Shown here: piece after piece, positions 1-11,971 of the stretch | Numbering within the stretch: the first letter of the stretch is position 1 | Layout: each line of letters opens with the position of its first letter | Assembly (NCBI GenBank): GCA_029007725.1 | Contig: JAQXIJ010000002.1 | Coordinates: 1 to 41,999 of the forward strand | DNA length: 41,999 nucleotides | Reading direction: 5' to 3' | From: Bacillota bacterium | Lineage (GTDB): Bacteria; Bacillota; Clostridia; UBA1381 | Made by a program: the position numbers and the translations under genes | Notes under the pieces: generated by a model | Databases searched by the model: none | What the model saw: the letters and a program-made list of their open reading frames with translations, nothing else | What the model was told of the DNA's origin: nothing

Positions 1-420
<420 letters not shown>

Positions 421-636
421 ATTGGCTATATTCACGCTTTCGCGCTTATATACTTCTTTATCAGAACTTGTTAGCTCTAACTTTGTACTTTTCAAGTACC
501 ACTGACTTTAAATTTCGTTTCCGAATTTCTGTCATAAAAAAACTCATAGTTTTCTTTAGTAGATTTCTCTACTGACAAGAACTCTGCACTGTTTATTTTT
601 CAATGTTCAACCGCTGCCTCAAGCGACAGCTTATTT

Positions 637-665
637 ATATTACCACATCCAAACGTGTTTGTCAA
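637..665 (-). promoter_or_regulatory. rrn promoter, proximal (P2)
   Basis: On the minus strand there is TTGACA (-35, 660-665), a 17-base spacer and TAATAT (-10, 637-642). It lies about 215 bases upstream of the mature 16S 5' end, with an A-rich UP-like stretch just upstream. The leader between the promoter and 16S (421-630) carries no gene. Confidence 0.85.
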
Positions 666-774
666 TACCTTTTTTTATCTTTTTTCGATTTTTTTAATTC
701 CGGTATCGCCCGCTCGTTTGGACAGCTTGTTCATTTTACTACCTTTTTCTCCTTTTGTCAATACCTTTTTTTAT
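658..774. repeat. 21-bp direct repeat at the tandem rrn promoters
   Basis: The same 21 bases (TTTGTCAATACC followed by seven T, then AT) occur at 658-678 and 754-774. Read on the minus strand, each copy is an A-tract UP-like element joined to the -35 box of one rrn promoter. The repeat therefore looks like duplication of the promoter upstream module. Confidence 0.85.
733..761 (-). promoter_or_regulatory. rrn promoter, distal (P1)
   Basis: This is a second sigma-A type promoter on the minus strand: TTGACA (756-761), a 17-base spacer and TAAAAT (733-738). It lies 96 bases upstream of P2 and shares the same A-rich upstream block. Tandem promoters are normal for rRNA operons. Confidence 0.82.
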
Positions 775-838
775 TTTTTTATATTATAAAAAGTTTTACA
801 ATATGTGCGAAAGTCAAAAACCCTCAAGCAGTACCACC

Positions 839-866
839 TGTGCGAGAGGCAGCTGCCTCTCGCACA
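839..866. repeat. 28-bp perfect palindrome (terminator-like)
   Basis: Positions 839-866 form a perfect inverted repeat centred on AGCT, with arms starting TGTGCGAGAGGC. On the plus strand it is followed by ATTATTTTTT, so it would act as a rho-independent terminator for rightward transcripts. No rightward gene lies upstream. It sits at the junction between the rrn promoter region and the decayed mobile element, and could be an element boundary or a leftover terminator. Confidence 0.7.
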
Positions 867-899
867 TTATTTTTTGCCAAAAAAAAGGAAAGGAGGACA

Positions 900-1163
900 A
901 CCTTATTACTTGCAGATATTTTTCCTACGGGGGACAGGAAACACTTTGAGGAACAGTACAACTCAGGTGCAGCCCTGCCAGATATTGCGGACACACTTGG
1001 CGTGCATATCAGCACCATCTACCGATAACTTAACCGAGGCGGCACGGTCGAAATTGATGCCAATGGGCGTGCCGGATATTATGTAGAGCTCGCACAAAAA
1101 AATATGCTGGAAAGCCTTAAAAGGCGAGGCAAAAGACAAGGAGACACAAAACAAAATGAATGA
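900..1163 (+). pseudogene. small helix-turn-helix protein, disrupted by an internal stop
   Basis: One frame reads TGDRKHFEEQYNSGAA, then an HTH (LPDIADTLGVHISTIYR), then a stop codon (TAA 1026-1028) where a Glu codon is expected. It continues in the same frame through LNRGGTVEIDANGRAGY and LESLKRRGKR to a real stop at 1161-1163. Such short IS30-type HTH proteins are common in clostridial prophages and integrative elements. A strong GGAGG lies near 890, but the start codon is no longer clear. The end overlaps the next start by 8 bases, which suggests an old operon. Confidence 0.7.
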
Positions 1164-1825
1164 GTTGCAATCATTCATTAATGCGGAGTTTGGCGAGATA
1201 CGCTCAATTACTATTGAAAATATCCACTATTTTGTTGGCAGAGATGTTGCAAGCATTTTGGGCTATTCCAACACAAGGGATACCTTGGCAAAGCGGGTTT
1301 ACAGTGAGGACAAACTCACAAGGAAAGCGGTTTATACATTTTGATACTTACAAGCAAGCTGCCATCCGCAAAAGAGTTTAAGCGTTGGGTTACATCAAGT
1401 GTTTTGCCTATGATACGCAAAACCGGTGTTTATTCTGTCGGTATGGTTTTGAAAAACGATGACACCGTTGCACCGATGCGGTTGCTTTCCCTGGATGATT
1501 ATTTATCTGCCGCTCGATTGATAGCAACCTGCAAGAGTGAACGCCTGGGAATTGTGCTTGCCCTGCTTTCAAAAGGCAGCCGGGGTATTCCGCAGATTGC
1601 ATCCGCACACCTTTAAGACAGGACACATCGGATATTGCCGAAAGAATTACACGAGTGAGATCAAAAACAGGCATAAACCTACAAGAGCTCGGAAAAGAAC
1701 TTGGTATAAGTGTTGAGGGTTTGCGTTCTCACGAAACCAGGCGGCGTTTTCCAAAGCAAGACAGGTACACCTTCATCGTAATGCTGTTAAACAACCTTGA
1801 GGAAACAGCCGAAAAGGATGATAGC
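1156..1825 (+). pseudogene. BRO/antirepressor-type phage protein, frameshifted and internally deleted
   Basis: The ATG at 1156 opens a BRO N-terminal domain (IHYFVGRDVASILGYSN, then LAKRVYSEDK) that stops at 1344. The family's next block (SKLPSAKEFKRWVTSSVLP, then MIRKTG) follows in another frame from about 1341, and the segment normally between them is missing, so an internal deletion is likely. A second shift near 1590 joins to DIAERITRVRSKTGINLQEL and LGISVEGLRSHETRRRFPK. That last part resembles the C-terminal region of phage antirepressors. The gene is dead as it stands. In phages these proteins counter the repressor or are DNA-binding. Confidence 0.72.
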
Positions 1826-1983
1826 GAACAATACCCTACGAACAAAAAAGAGCCAAAGAGCGTGAGCTTGCGGCTATGCGGAAACGCCGAATACAAAGAC
1901 GTAATAACTGCATTGCTTGGCTCATTCTTATTGGCGGTGTGCTTGTTATATTTGCTCTCGTACGCTGTTTGGGTGGCACCTAA
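1825..1983 (+). pseudogene. small membrane protein remnant
   Basis: One frame gives a basic stretch (KRAKERELAAMRKRRIQRR) followed by a single hydrophobic segment (CIAWLILIGGVLVIFALV) and a stop at 1981. A stop immediately precedes the frame and no good start codon or ribosome site is visible, so the 5' end is probably lost. The arrangement suggests a small single-pass protein carried between phage or element genes. I do not recognise a function. Confidence 0.45.
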
Positions 1984-1989
1984 CGAGCC

Positions 1990-2528
1990 ACGCACAAAAA
2001 AGACAAGCTACACCTACAATCACAGTGTATCCTTATATTAAGGATTGTAACGAGCAACCAACCTCAAAGGTACTTGATCTTACAAATGCAACCAAAACTG
2101 CAAAGGGCGTGCCGGAATTGTCGCTTGATTACGATCTACAAATGGCTATGTATGATAGCTGCCAAAAGTATGATGTACCCTTTGTGTTGGCACTTGACGT
2201 GGCAGAAAAGGAAAGGAAAGCGGCTTTAACCTGTATGCAGCGAGCAAGACAGACGATCACGGCATTATTGCAAATTAACCGCTGCAATTTTGAGTACCTA
2301 CGCAACAAGGAAATTTATCCCCTTACTTAAGAGGGCAACATTGAGACAGGCATAATGTTCCTCGGTGAAAATTTAACCCTTTACAGAGATTAGGAGCTCG
2401 CAGTTATGGCTTATAACTGCGGCCGCACTGGAGCCAAAAGACTTTGGGACGCCGGTACATACAGCACAGCATACTCAAGAGCTGTTATGGAGCTATACAA
2501 AAAAATGGCTCGGTATGCTGGAGGATAA
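1990..2528 (+). pseudogene. lytic transglycosylase (SLT family), frameshifted
   Basis: Pieces match a small SLT-type transglycosylase: VPELSLDYDLQMAMYDSC with KYDVPFVLALDVAEKE. A shifted frame then gives ESGFNLYAASKTDDHGI (around 2217-2270), which returns to the first frame at LQINRCNFEYL. In-frame stops at 2328 and 2391 interrupt the part before ELAVMAYNCGRTGAKRLWDAG. The conserved catalytic Glu (ETES-like), LQIN and MAYNCG motifs are all recognisable, but need two frameshifts and two stop readthroughs. In phages or conjugative elements such enzymes open the cell wall locally. Confidence 0.75.
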
Positions 2529-2531
2529 ATA

Positions 2532-2621
2532 ATGGCTTATTATAATAATTGCCCGGATTGTGGTGCAAACCTTGATCCCGGCGAAAAATGAGACTGTCAA
2601 ACAAATAAAAATTATATATAG
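2532..2621 (+). pseudogene. zinc-ribbon mini-protein with a Cys codon turned to stop
   Basis: The ATG at 2532 gives MAYYNNCPDCGANLDPGEK, then TGA, then DCQTNKNYI and a stop. The TGA sits where the second CxC pair of a zinc ribbon would begin (GEKCDC expected), so a TGC or TGT codon has probably mutated. The ATG is 3 bases after the transglycosylase stop, fitting a former operon. Confidence 0.6.
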
Positions 2622-2792
2622 GTGATTGTAAAATTGAGTTATTGCAGCAAGGTATAAATCGGCTTTGATAGTAAGTGTGTTGTGTGTTCTTATGCAATCG
2701 AAATGCTGTATAAGGAACACAGGGGCAAAAAACAAAACCTCGCTACACATATACTTATGTTGACGGACGATGTTATTATTTTTGCAGCATAA
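2622..2792 (+). pseudogene. small Cys-containing protein remnant
   Basis: A GTG at 2622 behind AGGTG is followed by an in-frame stop at 2655. From 2658 the frame reads IGFDSKCVVCSYAIEMLYKE, then HRGKKQNLATHI and LMLTDDVIIFAA, and stops at 2790. A frame change near 2645 gives ELLQQG before GFDSKC, so a frameshift is likely. The CxxC could bind metal. I do not recognise the family. Confidence 0.4.
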
Positions 2793-2794
2793 AA

Positions 2795-3191
2795 AGCACA
2801 ATGCAAAAGCCGCAGACAAATCTATTGAGGAGTTTATGCTTACACGCCTCGGCTTGCATATCAAGCCAAACCACAATATTAAACGGACGGAAAAAAGCCT
2901 CCGGATATGATGGGATTTGTGGTCATCAAAGATCAAACCACAATAAGATCCCGCACCTTTGTACGAGCTCGTCGTGCCCTTTTGAGAGCGTGGCGCCGTA
3001 TGTTAGCATGGTTGCCCATATATCTGCAAAATGCCCGGAGGATCGTTTCTTAACGTGGGTATTTTAAGCACAAAAACTCACAACATATTGCAAAGGCGTT
3101 GCACCTTAAATCCATGCATCGTGCGGCAAGAAAAGTAATAAGCAAATTTGTGAAAGGAGCATACGACAATAGTAACGAAAGCGTATTTTAA
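2795..3191 (+). pseudogene. C-terminal remnant of a phage-type reverse transcriptase (tentative)
   Basis: The frame reads KSIEEFMLTRLGLHIKPN and shifts near 2895 to PDMMGFVVIKDQTTIRSRTF and VRARRALLRAWRRM. After an in-frame stop near 3050 it continues FKHKNSQHIAKALHLKSMHR and ARKVISKFVKG. The pattern 'LGL-IKPN ... DMMGF ... TTIR-R-F-R-RRA ... Y-G-FKHTNS' resembles the region after the palm domain in clostridial prophage reverse transcriptases. The catalytic palm with its YxDD box is absent. The assignment rests on remembered family pattern and needs a profile search. Confidence 0.45.
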
Positions 3192-3415
3192 ACGGCTCTA
3201 TACCAAGTATATAAACGATAAGACCAATCAGGCGGTTGCAAAAAACGTTGTGCAGGCTGTTGAGTAGATTTATAAGGATATGCACTGTGAGGAAAAGCTC
3301 AACAAAGCCCTTGAGGCGGCATCGGAAATGCTTGCAGAAAAAGGTAATTACCATTACTGATCTTGAGATGCGTATGCTGATCGAGGCGGCGCTTGCCGAA
3401 TTTAACAAATTGTAA
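3172..3415 (+). pseudogene. phage holin, LLH family, broken
   Basis: One frame reads VTKAYFKRLYTKYINDKTNQ, AVAKNVVQAVE, a stop, then IYKDMHCEEKLNKALEAASE and MLAEKG. A shift follows to ITDLEMRMLIEAALAEFNKL and the stop at 3413. The C-terminal block (EKL-KAL--ASEMLAEKG then TDLEMRMLIEAALAEFN) is characteristic of LLH holins, which make membrane holes that release phage lysins. The N-terminal membrane segment is missing. It follows the transglycosylase in a likely former lysis region. Confidence 0.65.
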
Positions 3416-3603
3416 TACCAAACAACCGCAGTATAAAAGCCTTTTACACCCTTTTCTTATAATCTTAAATTTTTATGTATAGAGGGTAAAACAGGGATCA
3501 CAGAGAGGAATTTTACCGCACACCTGCCTTTTTGTACGCAAGTACGCATACAATGTAAGAAAGCACATGGAGAGCCGCAAAGCTTTCTAGGTGCTATTTC
3601 ATT
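3416..3603. other. non-coding stretch in the decayed element
   Basis: I see no open frame, RNA motif or clear repeat here. It separates the holin remnant from a small minus-strand ORF and looks like scrambled element DNA. Confidence 0.4.
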
Positions 3604-3804
3604 TTATTGGTTGTTTTCATATTTATCAATATATGCTTTTACCTTTTCGATTAAAGCATAGTACTCATCCATAAACATAAATGTGAGCTCTGCTTTTTCA
3701 AGCTCCATAAGCATTTTTATATAGCGGTTTAGTTTGCCCTTGTCTGTTTTCAAAGCATACGCTTTATAAATGCCGTCCGTTTCATAATCGTGCAGTACAC
3801 GCAC
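3604..3804 (-). CDS. small hypothetical protein, possibly 5'-truncated
   Basis: A 66-residue frame starts at GTG (3804) with MRVLHDYETDGIYKAYALKT, ends with EKVKAYIDKYENNQ, and is charged and mostly helical. It is the only unbroken frame of this size in the 900-5000 block, and the composition looks like real protein. No convincing ribosome site precedes the GTG, and the plus-strand fragment of another gene begins within it. The 5' end may therefore have been cut by a rearrangement. No function is recognised. Confidence 0.4.
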   Translation of the reverse strand: MRVLHDYETDGIYKAYALKTDKGKLNRYIKMLMELEKAELTFMFMDEYYALIEKVKAYIDKYENNQ

Positions 3805-3947
3805 CTTGTTTCACCACTACCGATCAGGATATTATTGACAAGTTGGAAAGCGTACCGAGCAAAGCCGGTTATATTAAAAGCCTTATCCGTACTGACATAG
3901 CCGCAAGTACACGAAAGCAAACAGAATACATACCCGTAGGCAGCACA
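3788..3947 (+). pseudogene. 3' fragment of a small plasmid/element DNA-binding-type protein
   Basis: The frame reads TTTDQDIIDKLESVPSKAGY then IKSLIRTDIAAS, without a start codon. 'DQDII-KL-S--SK-GYIK-LIR-DI' matches the C-terminal half of short ribbon-helix-helix type proteins found on integrative elements. It runs straight into the transposase frame with no stop between them, which suggests that the IS or a deletion joined the two. Confidence 0.4.
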
Positions 3948-4991
3948 ATGAGGCATTATAAAACACTTACTTGGAATGATAGATTACAAATAGAGACTTG
4001 GCTGCGTGTGAAAACGCCCATAAAAATTATAGCCGAGCAGTTGGGCGTGCACATCAGTACCATATACCGTGAGATCAAGCGTGGTGAATACTAACACCTT
4101 AACACCGACTGGACAACGGGAAAACGGTACAACCTCGAAATATCCGAGCAGAAAAAGCAGGAATTTTTAAGGGCAAAAGGCAGAGATCTTAAGATCGGCA
4201 ATAATATGGAGTACGCTGATTATCTGGAGTACAAGGTTGCTGTTGATAATAAGCCCCTGGTGCTATCCTCGGCGAAATAAAGCGTAAGGGCTTAAAATTC
4301 AATACATCTATTTCAAAAACTACCTTTTACAGATATGAAAGCGGTGTTTTCCTCACCATAACCAATAAGAGCCTGCCGGTTAAAAGGAATAAAACCGAGC
4401 ACAAATATGATAAGATGCAACGAGCTAAACGCCCGCCAAAGGGTGATGGCATAGAAAAACCCCAGAGGAAAATTCCGAGCGTGTAACCTTTGGGCATTGG
4501 GATATGGATTGTGTGTAGGGCAAAAAGGGTACCAAGAAAACCCTCCTTGTACTTACTGAACGCAAAACCCGCAACGAGATCATCCGCATTATGCAGAACA
4601 AAACCGCCGCCAGCCTTGTTAAGGCTCTTAACGCACTTGAACGGGAACACGGTCCGGAGCTGTTTGCCCAGGTGCTCCGACCATTACCGTTGACAATGGC
4701 TCCGAGTTTTCCGACTTTACCGGAATTGAACAAAGCTACATTCTTTCTGGATGCAATCGCACCAAGTTATACTTTTGACACCCATACAGCTCGTACGAGC
4801 GTGGATCCAATGAAAACCAAAACAAAATGGTACGCCGCCATTACACCAAAGGTTATGATTTCACCAACACAACACCCACCGAAATACGCAAACTTGAAAA
4901 ATGGATCAATAACTACCCACGGGAAATTTTTGATTATTATACCTCTGCTGACCTGTACGAGGCCTGCCTTAACAGCCTTATGATCGTGTAA
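3948..4991 (+). mobile_element. IS30-family transposase, degenerate
   Basis: The ATG at 3948 gives MRHYKTLTWNDRLQIETWL, then the IS30 HTH (IKIIAEQLGVHISTIYREIKR), and a stop at 4092. Downstream pieces in changing frames are HLNTDWTTGKRYNLEISEQK, then LPVKRNKTEHKYDKMQRAKR with PPKGDGIEK. The DDE core follows as FGHWDMDCV (then a stop), KKTLLVLTERKTRNEIIRIM, TVDNGSEF, PYSSYERGSNENQN, and finally WINNYPREIFDYYTSADLYE with a stop at 4989. The three catalytic acids are still visible in WDMD, VDNGSEF and NEN. At least three shifts and several stops make it inactive. I could not identify terminal inverted repeats with confidence. Confidence 0.82.
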
Positions 4992-5064: not shown

Positions 5065-5550
5065 CTACTTGACTTTACAATTTTTTTGAGATTTTTTGAA
5101 AAAATGTGCCATCACTGCTCGAAAAAACGCAATTTTTTCATTTATATTTTGCCTTCTCACTTGCCTTACACAATACTTTCTGTACTTTTTGTCATTACAC
5201 GAAACATATTCCTTTTCGCGGTAAAAGCCTTCAACCAAAGCCAGAATATCTTCATTTTTGACACCGCTCTCACGATTGCACTGATTATCACCGCGCATAA
5301 TATATCCCTTTTTCCCCACTCCGATCACTCTGTGTATCACAAACTGACCGTTTTTTCTTCTGTAGAGAGGCAAATCATATTTTTTCAGTTTCACCGGAGC
5401 CTTTACAAGAACGACCGTATCCTTTCCTTCACGAATCATAGGAAGCATACTCCTTCCTTTAGGTCCGAAACGTACTTTTTTCCCAAGTGCAATCTGCTCA
5501 TGCATAAAGGGCCACATATCCGCAAGACGCACTTCGTTTACATTACTCAT
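5065..5550 (-). CDS. S24/S26-family (signal peptidase-like) peptidase
   Basis: This 161-residue protein carries the Ser box GRSMLPMIREGKDTVVL (about residues 32-48), then LPLYRRKNGQFVIHRVIG and YIMRGDNQCN. The order is that of S24/S26 serine peptidases, with Ser as nucleophile. No N-terminal membrane anchor is visible, so it is not a standard signal peptidase I. The C-terminal 45 residues are strongly basic. It overlaps the upstream PqqD-like gene by 8 bases, so the two are co-translated. Peptidases next to PqqD/RRE proteins can process modified peptides, but no precursor peptide is seen here. Confidence 0.75.
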   Translation of the reverse strand: MSNVNEVRLADMWPFMHEQIALGKKVRFGPKGRSMLPMIREGKDTVVLVKAPVKLKKYDLPLYRRKNGQFVIHRVIGVGKKGYIMRGDNQCNRESGVKNEDILALVEGFYREKEYVSCNDKKYRKYCVRQVRRQNINEKIAFFRAVMAHFFKKSQKNCKVK

Positions 5551-5845
5551 TAATTACCAACAGCTTTCCTTCGTCAAGTTTTTTAAGAAAATTTACTATA
5601 TCCTCTTTTGCAGTTTCCTCGTCAACGTCATATTCCGCCATAACATTTGACAAAAGCTGTTCCATCGTAGTGCCCAATTCAAGTATTTTCCACAGAAAAA
5701 CTCCCACTTCATTATTTATTGTAATGAGCCCGTTAAAGTCAATAGATTCGTCTTCAACTCCGATTACAAGATAATTGCCGGCAACTTTCCGCAAAATAAA
5801 GCCGTCTTTAATTTTAATCGAATCTGTTTTTTTCACAATTTTCAT
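5543..5845 (-). CDS. PqqD-family (RRE-like) protein
   Basis: At 100 residues this is the usual length for PqqD domains. It begins MKIVKKTDSIKIKDGFILRK and has the typical INNEVGVFLWKILELGTT, LLSNVMAEYDVDEETAKEDI and NFLKKLDEGKLL stretches. PqqD folds bind leader peptides and deliver them to modifying enzymes such as radical SAM proteins. AAAGGTGG precedes the ATG. It lies 19 bases after the TM1266-type gene and overlaps the peptidase gene. No radical SAM enzyme or transporter lies nearby, so the substrate is unknown. Confidence 0.8.
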   Translation of the reverse strand: MKIVKKTDSIKIKDGFILRKVAGNYLVIGVEDESIDFNGLITINNEVGVFLWKILELGTTMEQLLSNVMAEYDVDEETAKEDIVNFLKKLDEGKLLVINE

Positions 5846-5864
5846 ATTATACCACCTTTACATA

Positions 5865-6110
5865 TTATTTGAAAAAAATTTTTTCAACAGTAACTCCGTC
5901 AAGACGTGCTATTTCGTCCGACATTTTTTCGATAACCGATTTCGGTGCATCGATAATAATGCTCAAAACAGAAACCTCTCTCTCATTAAGCGGAATTCCC
6001 TGCCTGCACAAAATATCCTCTCCGTAATTATGCAGCACCGCATTCATTTCATCTACAGAGCGAAATTGTTCTACCTTAATACCCACTATTCCAATCACAT
6101 TATTTTCCAT
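5865..6110 (-). CDS. TM1266-type iron-only hydrogenase system putative regulator
   Basis: This 81-residue ACT-like protein reads NVIGIVGIKVEQFRSVDEMN, VLHNYGEDILCRQGIPL, SVLSIIIDAPKSVIEKMSDE and IARLDGVTVEKI. That pattern matches the TM1266 family of small proteins found near [FeFe]-hydrogenase maturation genes. GGGAGATG precedes the ATG. Here it leads an operon with PqqD and a peptidase, and no hydrogenase genes are present in the window. The family name is well supported, but the function is only putative. Confidence 0.78.
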   Translation of the reverse strand: MENNVIGIVGIKVEQFRSVDEMNAVLHNYGEDILCRQGIPLNEREVSVLSIIIDAPKSVIEKMSDEIARLDGVTVEKIFFK

Positions 6111-11272: not shown

Positions 11273-11542
11273 ATGAACGAGAATATTAATGACAAATTAT
11301 CAAAAATTTTGTCGCATGTAGACAAAAGAAAGCTGATGAACTCCACGGATAAGCTTTCAAAGCTGATGTCATCCGAAGCTGGGCAAAAGCTGAAAAATTC
11401 ACTGACCGAAGAGGACAAAAAGAGAATTTTGGAGCAGTTTATGTCACTTGATCCGGCTGAAGCAGGAAAAAAACTGAGCAGCAACGGTCTTGAAACCTTT
11501 GAAAAGCTTTCCCCTGACGAAATTCTTAAAAAGCTGAGGTGA
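11273..11542 (+). CDS. small uncharacterised helical protein
   Basis: This 89-residue protein is rich in Lys, Ser and Leu, with no membrane segment. It contains the semi-repeated helical pieces KLSKILSHVDKRKLMNS and KLSKLMSSEAGQKLKN. GGGAGGG precedes the ATG. Two further small genes follow within 6 and 10 bases, so the three form one operon ending at a strong terminator. Similar trios of unnamed genes occur in Clostridia, and I suspect a sporulation or envelope role, but nothing in the sequence proves it. Confidence 0.75.
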   Translation: MNENINDKLSKILSHVDKRKLMNSTDKLSKLMSSEAGQKLKNSLTEEDKKRILEQFMSLDPAEAGKKLSSNGLETFEKLSPDEILKKLR

Positions 11543-11548
11543 TAATAA

Positions 11549-11971
11549 ATGGCAGATATGATGGATACACTGCGCGGTCTTCTCGGCGACAATGCCGATG
11601 AAAAGTTAAAAAACATCATGACAACCCTGCAAAGCAGCGGACTTATGCAAAACACGCCCTCTGCCCCTCAAAAAAAAGCGGGAAATCTGGCAAAGGAGAT
11701 AAACGACGACATAAAAATCGAAGCACCGGCAAAAAGCACACCGGCACAATCCGGCAGTTCAAGTTCAGGATTAAGTGCCGAAAATCTCCAGTACATGGCG
11801 CAAATCAAAAATATAATTAATGAAATGTCAAACAGTAACGACTCGCGGTCGAATCTTCTGCGTTCGCTGCGACCCTATATGCGAACAAACCGCCAGGTTA
11901 GCATTGACAGAGCTATCAGGCTTATGAATCTCAGTAAACTGTCGGGGCTTGCCGGACTGTTCAGAAAATAG
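11549..11971 (+). CDS. uncharacterised protein with conserved C-terminal helical block
   Basis: A 140-residue protein with three parts. There is an N-terminal helical segment (MADMMDTLRGLLGDNADEKL), a Ser/Ala/Pro/Lys-rich linker (about residues 40-78), and a C-terminal block (SRSNLLRSLRPYMRTNRQ, IDRAIRLMNLSKLSGLAGL). The C-terminal 'LL-LRP-M---R---IDRAIRLMNLSKL' pattern recurs in unnamed Firmicutes proteins that I remember. Function unknown. It is the middle gene of the three-gene operon. The ribosome site is weak (AGGTGAT). Confidence 0.75.
   Translation: MADMMDTLRGLLGDNADEKLKNIMTTLQSSGLMQNTPSAPQKKAGNLAKEINDDIKIEAPAKSTPAQSGSSSSGLSAENLQYMAQIKNIINEMSNSNDSRSNLLRSLRPYMRTNRQVSIDRAIRLMNLSKLSGLAGLFRK

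Follow-up and report, generated by a model that had tools for sequence, protein, structure and literature searches.

Three small adjacent genes in the window (the whole stretch of 41,999 nucleotides analysed here, contig 2 of a 1.65-Mb genome in 89 contigs with Clostridia-like gene content) raise the question of whether they form a peptide-processing unit and, if so, which peptide such a unit would act on. The initial annotation regarded the genes, for a TM1266-type protein, a PqqD-like protein and a serine peptidase, as an orphan operon and perhaps an undescribed system that recognizes and cleaves a leader-containing peptide possibly encoded elsewhere; it named a structural comparison and a survey of genome neighbourhoods as checks. 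The gene structure that it reported was confirmed, as all three open reading frames are present on the minus strand where they had been placed (Table 1), the PqqD-like and peptidase genes overlap exactly as described, and no radical SAM gene, precursor or transporter lies in the neighbourhood within the window. The overlap, which suggests translational coupling, is identical in relatives, and the TM1266 and PqqD genes are separated by 19 bp. Broken pieces of an IS30-type transposase adjoin the end of the peptidase gene, and a longer copy occurs on contig 23 (C23) of the same genome. Elsewhere in the window two small adjacent ORFs have no confident family match; similar ORFs are found at the corresponding place in some genomes of the family.

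Table 1. Positions of the features discussed in the text; C, contig of the genome that contains the window (G000); L, locus; G, genome.
Feature	Sequence	Positions	Strand	Remarks
TM1266-type protein gene	window	5865-6110	-	81 aa; TIGR03959 74 bits (cut-off 60.8); PF21699 1e-18
RRE (PqqD-fold, LppB-like) predicted leader-binding protein gene	window	5543-5845	-	100 aa; PF05402 49.4 bits (cut-off 23.4)
S26-type serine peptidase (LppS-like) gene	window	5065-5550	-	161 aa; TIGR02228 signal peptidase weak, 31.9 bits
RRE/peptidase gene overlap	window	5543-5550	-	8 bp, exact
PqqD/S26 gene overlap	L033	9415-9422		8 bp
PqqD/S26 gene overlap	L109	3391-3398		8 bp
HprK-like (LppK-like) kinase gene	G000:C23	25306-26019		E=3.6e-94
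IS30-type transposase pieces	window	3843-4983		broken
IS30-type transposase, longer copy	G000:C23	33540-34589		
Two small adjacent ORFs	window	11273-11971		89 and 140 aa
Glycyl radical enzyme and activating radical SAM gene	L295 (G000:C29)	1765-4808		decayed
Iron-type ABC ATPase, HydE and NifH-like protein genes	L095 (G000:C5)	243-3164	+	one run; HydE TIGR03956, 539 bits
68-70 aa protein after S26	L034	7820-8029		
68-70 aa protein after S26	L035	8202-8414		
68-70 aa protein after S26	L037	8702-8908		
68-70 aa protein after S26	L009	2307-2516		
Example leader peptide	G064			MKNYVKPSIELNRFDVEDIITTSG...

The PqqD-like protein was modelled as a winged helix of the PqqD type (pLDDT 87.9), with TbiB1 (TM 0.70), PqqD and TfuB1 as the best PDB matches and further matches to TigE and MccB. 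The structural comparison places the predicted model inside the RRE folds, in line with the initial annotation. When its sequence profile was compared with solved structures, LppB (9x8z) and PbaB1 (9x90) were matched. In the alignment to 9x8z, N45, D82 and F86 of the window protein are the equivalents of LppB N33, D70 and F74, and they are conserved in 41, 37 and 41 of 44 homologues, respectively; the Asn and Asp of this set are a feature of RREs for Tyr-type leaders. A one-residue insertion (N44) is located in the strand beside the binding Asn. A single-sequence RRE scan of the genome contigs yielded only two remote loci. Among the relatives, the PqqD of clade g10 (loci L040-L049, with a kinase-PqqD-DHFR layout) has Gly at the D82 position, which is that of the Tyr-binding Asp70 of LppB. 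The g10 genomes with this PqqD carry many leader peptides, and it may be expected to fit the leader differently.

The model of the peptidase (pLDDT 95.6) has the LexA/UmuD/Sec11 signal-peptidase fold, with Foldseek E-values of 1e-3 to 1e-2 at a probability of 1.0 and human Sec11 (SPC-A) among the best matches; a Pfam search of its sequence gave no match. S34, H73 and D88 are invariant in 49 homologues, and the counterpart of LppS D93 is D88 or E94. Judged from the model, the N-terminal helix is short (residues 9-21) and seems unlike a membrane anchor. The protein is thus a SipW-like Ser/His/Asp peptidase adjoining a discrete RRE, as in the LPP pathway introduced below. Directly 3' of the S26 gene, four members of the genus encode a conserved protein (MTECTGLIQIPPEN..., basic tail; c21, MKDEDFAFDIMNNANTVASMTECTGL...), which has no family match and was not seen in the window.

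The RRE and the S26 peptidase correspond to LppB and LppS of the linear polyphosphorylated peptide (LPP) RiPPs, which are encoded by lppAKBSDN in Paenibacillus alginolyticus (Popov et al., Nat Commun, 20 May 2026; PMC13381572). In that pathway, LppB presents the leader of LppA to the SipW-like peptidase LppS, the HprK-like LppK phosphorylates Ser3 of the core, LppD is the export pump and LppN an NTP transferase; experiments have demonstrated LppB-dependent cleavage by LppS in vitro as well as phosphorylation by LppK, and LppA is cut at T-1|A1-Q2-S3 (PMC13381572). LPP clusters, described mainly from Bacilli and without an assigned function, hold one to three precursors each (PMC13381572). Because LppB and LppS act in this way in vitro, leader-peptide recognition and cleavage, as the initial annotation supposed, is the best reading of the window pair, and we consider it quite probable that the pair is the corresponding step of an LPP-like RiPP pathway. 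The system can no longer be called undescribed, its counterpart having been published in May 2026.

The survey of neighbourhoods revealed conserved partners of the PqqD-peptidase pair, namely an HprK-like kinase, an ABC exporter, a nucleotidyltransferase, short precursors and sometimes a radical SAM protein. Among 291 genomes (species) of the class, PqqD was found in 91, S26 in 79 and both in 78, so that 78 of the 79 S26 genomes also carry PqqD (P = 9e-56, Fisher's exact test, a value that overstates independence since the genomes are related); many of the genomes compared are incomplete metagenome assemblies. The S26 gene directly follows PqqD in 51 of the 291 genomes and lies within 6 kb of it in 12 more. 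An HprK-like kinase (E<1e-20 set) accompanies S26 in 77 of the 79 genomes, and the two that have none are 61-62% complete. In the neighbourhoods of the pair across the class, an MsbA-like exporter was observed at 23 loci, SLH proteins at 18, an NTP transferase at 7 and a radical SAM gene at 7, and short peptides were also found. Within the family, PqqD relatives are present in 41 of 70 genomes, two of them being weak matches inside long frames.

The layout of these genes differs between clades. In the window's genus the S26 gene stands directly after PqqD; in genus g10, PqqD is located between the HprK-like kinase and DHFR, and the S26 gene is elsewhere. Locus L039, in which an SLH protein, the kinase, PqqD and S26 follow in a row, links the two. 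The genome that contains the window does encode an HprK-like kinase, of the LppK type, unlinked to the pair; it lies on contig 23 and adjoins DHFR, as in g10, and the window pair thus looks like a split part of an RRE/protease/kinase module. The label of orphan is therefore wrong genome-wide, as it overlooked both this partner kinase and the conservation of the gene pair. Beside the window pair the MsbA-like exporter and the NTP transferase are absent, and no LppD-like exporter was found in 600 kb of the same genome. No SPASM-type peptide maturase was recognised among the inspected members of its 17 radical SAM matches, which are housekeeping types or HydE. A more complete cluster is seen in G062, another genome of the genus, where a radical SAM gene, HprK, two short Cys peptides, PqqD and S26 lie together and the 8-bp overlap is kept. 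A glycyl radical enzyme and its activase, which precede the pair in G064 and G065 (the activase also in G066), were considered as partners and set aside, as they occur in few genus members only and their position may reflect chance or a local operon.

The TM1266-type protein, although above the cut-off of the [FeFe]-hydrogenase-associated regulator family (TIGR03959), is not part of the unit in the way the initial annotation had it. It adjoins the pair in the window genome only, no TM1266 gene was found by tblastn in the PqqD/S26 loci of relatives, and it was accordingly rejected as a functional partner; as far as is visible, it is unrelated to the function of the pair. Elsewhere in the same genome, genes for an iron-type ABC ATPase, HydE and a NifH-like protein form one run (L095), which may be the true setting of TM1266-type proteins there.

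The substrates were sought among the relatives. The two Cys peptides linked to the machinery in G062 have the leader MEKYxRAEMxVVEFETEDVITTSG. A leader profile built from machinery-linked peptides and searched in the genomes of the genus and family identified scattered short ORFs with the consensus MKxYxKPxIEIxxFxVEDIIxxSG (an example is given in Table 1), with up to 33 matches per family genome at E<=5 (G001 33, G047 29, G048 22, G035 20). A Shine-Dalgarno-like sequence precedes nearly all of 20 inspected peptide genes. Within the family, leader peptides (E<=0.02) occur in 40 of 42 genomes with the machinery vs 3 of 28 others (P = 1.6e-13; 7e-12 with seeds removed), and across the class 46 of the 47 genomes with leader peptides have PqqD (P = 9e-27; 31 of 32, P = 5e-19, with seed genomes removed), all P values again overstating the independence of related genomes. 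Clade g7, which is without the machinery, gave no leader-peptide match below 0.1. In the relatives, the machinery seems to work in trans on scattered short peptides that number from several to dozens. We found no earlier description of such a trans-acting, many-substrate layout in the open-licence papers searched.

The dispersed peptide genes have a characteristic position. Of 43 examined, 41 lie immediately behind a gene on the same strand, in most cases with a gap of 12-37 bp. A home-made rule detected a signal-peptide-like start in 29 of 32 complete upstream ORFs; the background of this rule is 34%, as it also accepted 150 of 443 control genes. The secreted proteins scanned contain BspA LRR, Big_2, GLUG and SLH domains, and the rest none. 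One peptide/secreted-protein pair, downstream of a NadD-like gene, is common to five genus members and lies next to RsfS and LeuRS in three of them; its presence at the same place in all five indicates that such peptide genes are inherited. Judging from gene position, the peptides may be partners of the surface proteins. We give about an even chance to the broader view that one central kinase/RRE/S26-protease set matures many peptides in trans, each the companion of an upstream secreted or surface protein, so that the system would serve cell-surface protein loci as a general accessory, unlike a classical natural-product cluster.

In the genome of the window itself, three leader-profile searches found no leader peptide, and no precursor was found in 600 kb by a position-based scan for short ORFs behind secreted-protein genes together with a profile search, scans that recovered known leader peptides as positive controls; a precursor with an LPP-type leader is likewise missing from the finds in this genome, for which a single short precursor is uninformative as a query. 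At the RsfS place, where relatives have the secreted protein and peptide, remnants of a glycyl radical enzyme and activase are present instead. Decayed genes for a glycyl radical enzyme and its activating radical SAM protein lie at L295, and in G064 and G065 a similar pair, seemingly intact, precedes PqqD-S26. The suggestion that the substrate is encoded elsewhere fits the relatives, with their scattered leader peptides, and found no precursor to bear it out in the window genome, whose substrates may have a divergent leader or may have disappeared, leaving the machinery behind.

Under the LPP-like reading, the RRE would grip a short precursor by its Y-x-x-P leader and present this leader to the S26 protease, as its fold, its residues and the example of LppB suggest, and the protease would remove the leader in the manner of LppS. 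The cut might fall just before x-x-Ser-Gly, a speculative placement by analogy with LppA. The HprK-like kinase would add phosphate to a Ser close to the beginning of the core, and the product would presumably be exported to serve its function. In the relatives, one machinery would act in trans on peptides encoded genome-wide, usually just downstream of genes for secreted or surface proteins.

The missing precursor bears on a second account, in which the system is a relic in this genome, with substrates and exporter gone and the RRE, protease and kinase persisting without function. The decayed glycyl radical enzyme and activase at the place of the relatives' peptide, the transposase pieces beside the peptidase gene and the small size of the genome all fit such a history. 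Against it, the three machinery ORFs are intact and keep their catalytic and binding residues. The long branch of the window pair is matched by a long RuvX branch, so that nothing points to a relaxation confined to the pair, and relaxed selection was dropped as proof of decay. Decay is thus possible, not shown, and we regard the relic account as rather unlikely.

Two further accounts keep the machinery active on another kind of target or product. The peptidase could cut a non-RiPP target, such as the TM1266 protein or another partner, with the PqqD protein as an accessory chaperone; the close, co-oriented TM1266 gene and the presence of HydE in the genome would suit this, but the absence of TM1266 from the relatives' loci and the co-occurrence of PqqD, S26, kinase and leader peptides across the class make it very improbable. 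Alternatively, the RRE could be a lasso-peptide B1 protein working with a substitute protease toward a lasso peptide. Its best structural matches are indeed lasso B1 proteins, and the leader motif is common to lasso precursors, yet no B2 protease or Asn-synthetase-like macrolactam cyclase stood out among the neighbourhood ORFs, and we give this account hardly any credence.

The LPP-like reading has implications beyond the window, as LPP-type core machinery is present in about a quarter of the 291 species of the class. Some genomes have dozens of precursor-like genes to go with it, scattered and for the most part following genes for secreted proteins, and this dispersed layout is a genomic hint at the role of the peptides, something at the cell surface. 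If the trans reading is true, loss of the protease or kinase should alter many peptides at once.

Among known systems, the LPP pathway is the closest. Shared with it are the discrete RRE, the SipW-like Ser/His/Asp peptidase and the HprK-like kinase, at many loci of the class also the MsbA-like exporter and NTP transferase, and, in the relatives' peptides, the Y-x-x-P leader with a conserved Ser about 18-19 residues past the Tyr. Unlike in LPP clusters, the kinase of the window genome is unlinked and no exporter, transferase or precursor lies beside the pair, while the precursors of relatives are dispersed; their leader (YxKPxIEIxxFxVEDIIxxSG vs YxxPxVLxHQxIxFETxxS) has no HQ and no FET, and ends in E-D-I-I-x-x-S-G where that of LPP ends in F-E-T-x-x-S. 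The paeninodin-type lasso systems (PbaB1/B2/C/K) likewise have a discrete RRE, HprK kinase, NTP transferase, ABC exporter and [Y/W]xxP leader. They differ in that an S26 peptidase here takes the place of the cysteine leader peptidase B2, the cyclase is not among the genes noticed, the leader residue is Tyr and not Trp, and their RREs have Gly where the present one keeps Asn. Finally, the SipW/Sec11-type signal peptidases (S26B) share the fold and the order of the Ser/His/Asp motifs with the present peptidase, as the match to SPC-A illustrates, whereas the latter has no evident N-terminal membrane anchor and is genetically tied to an RRE.
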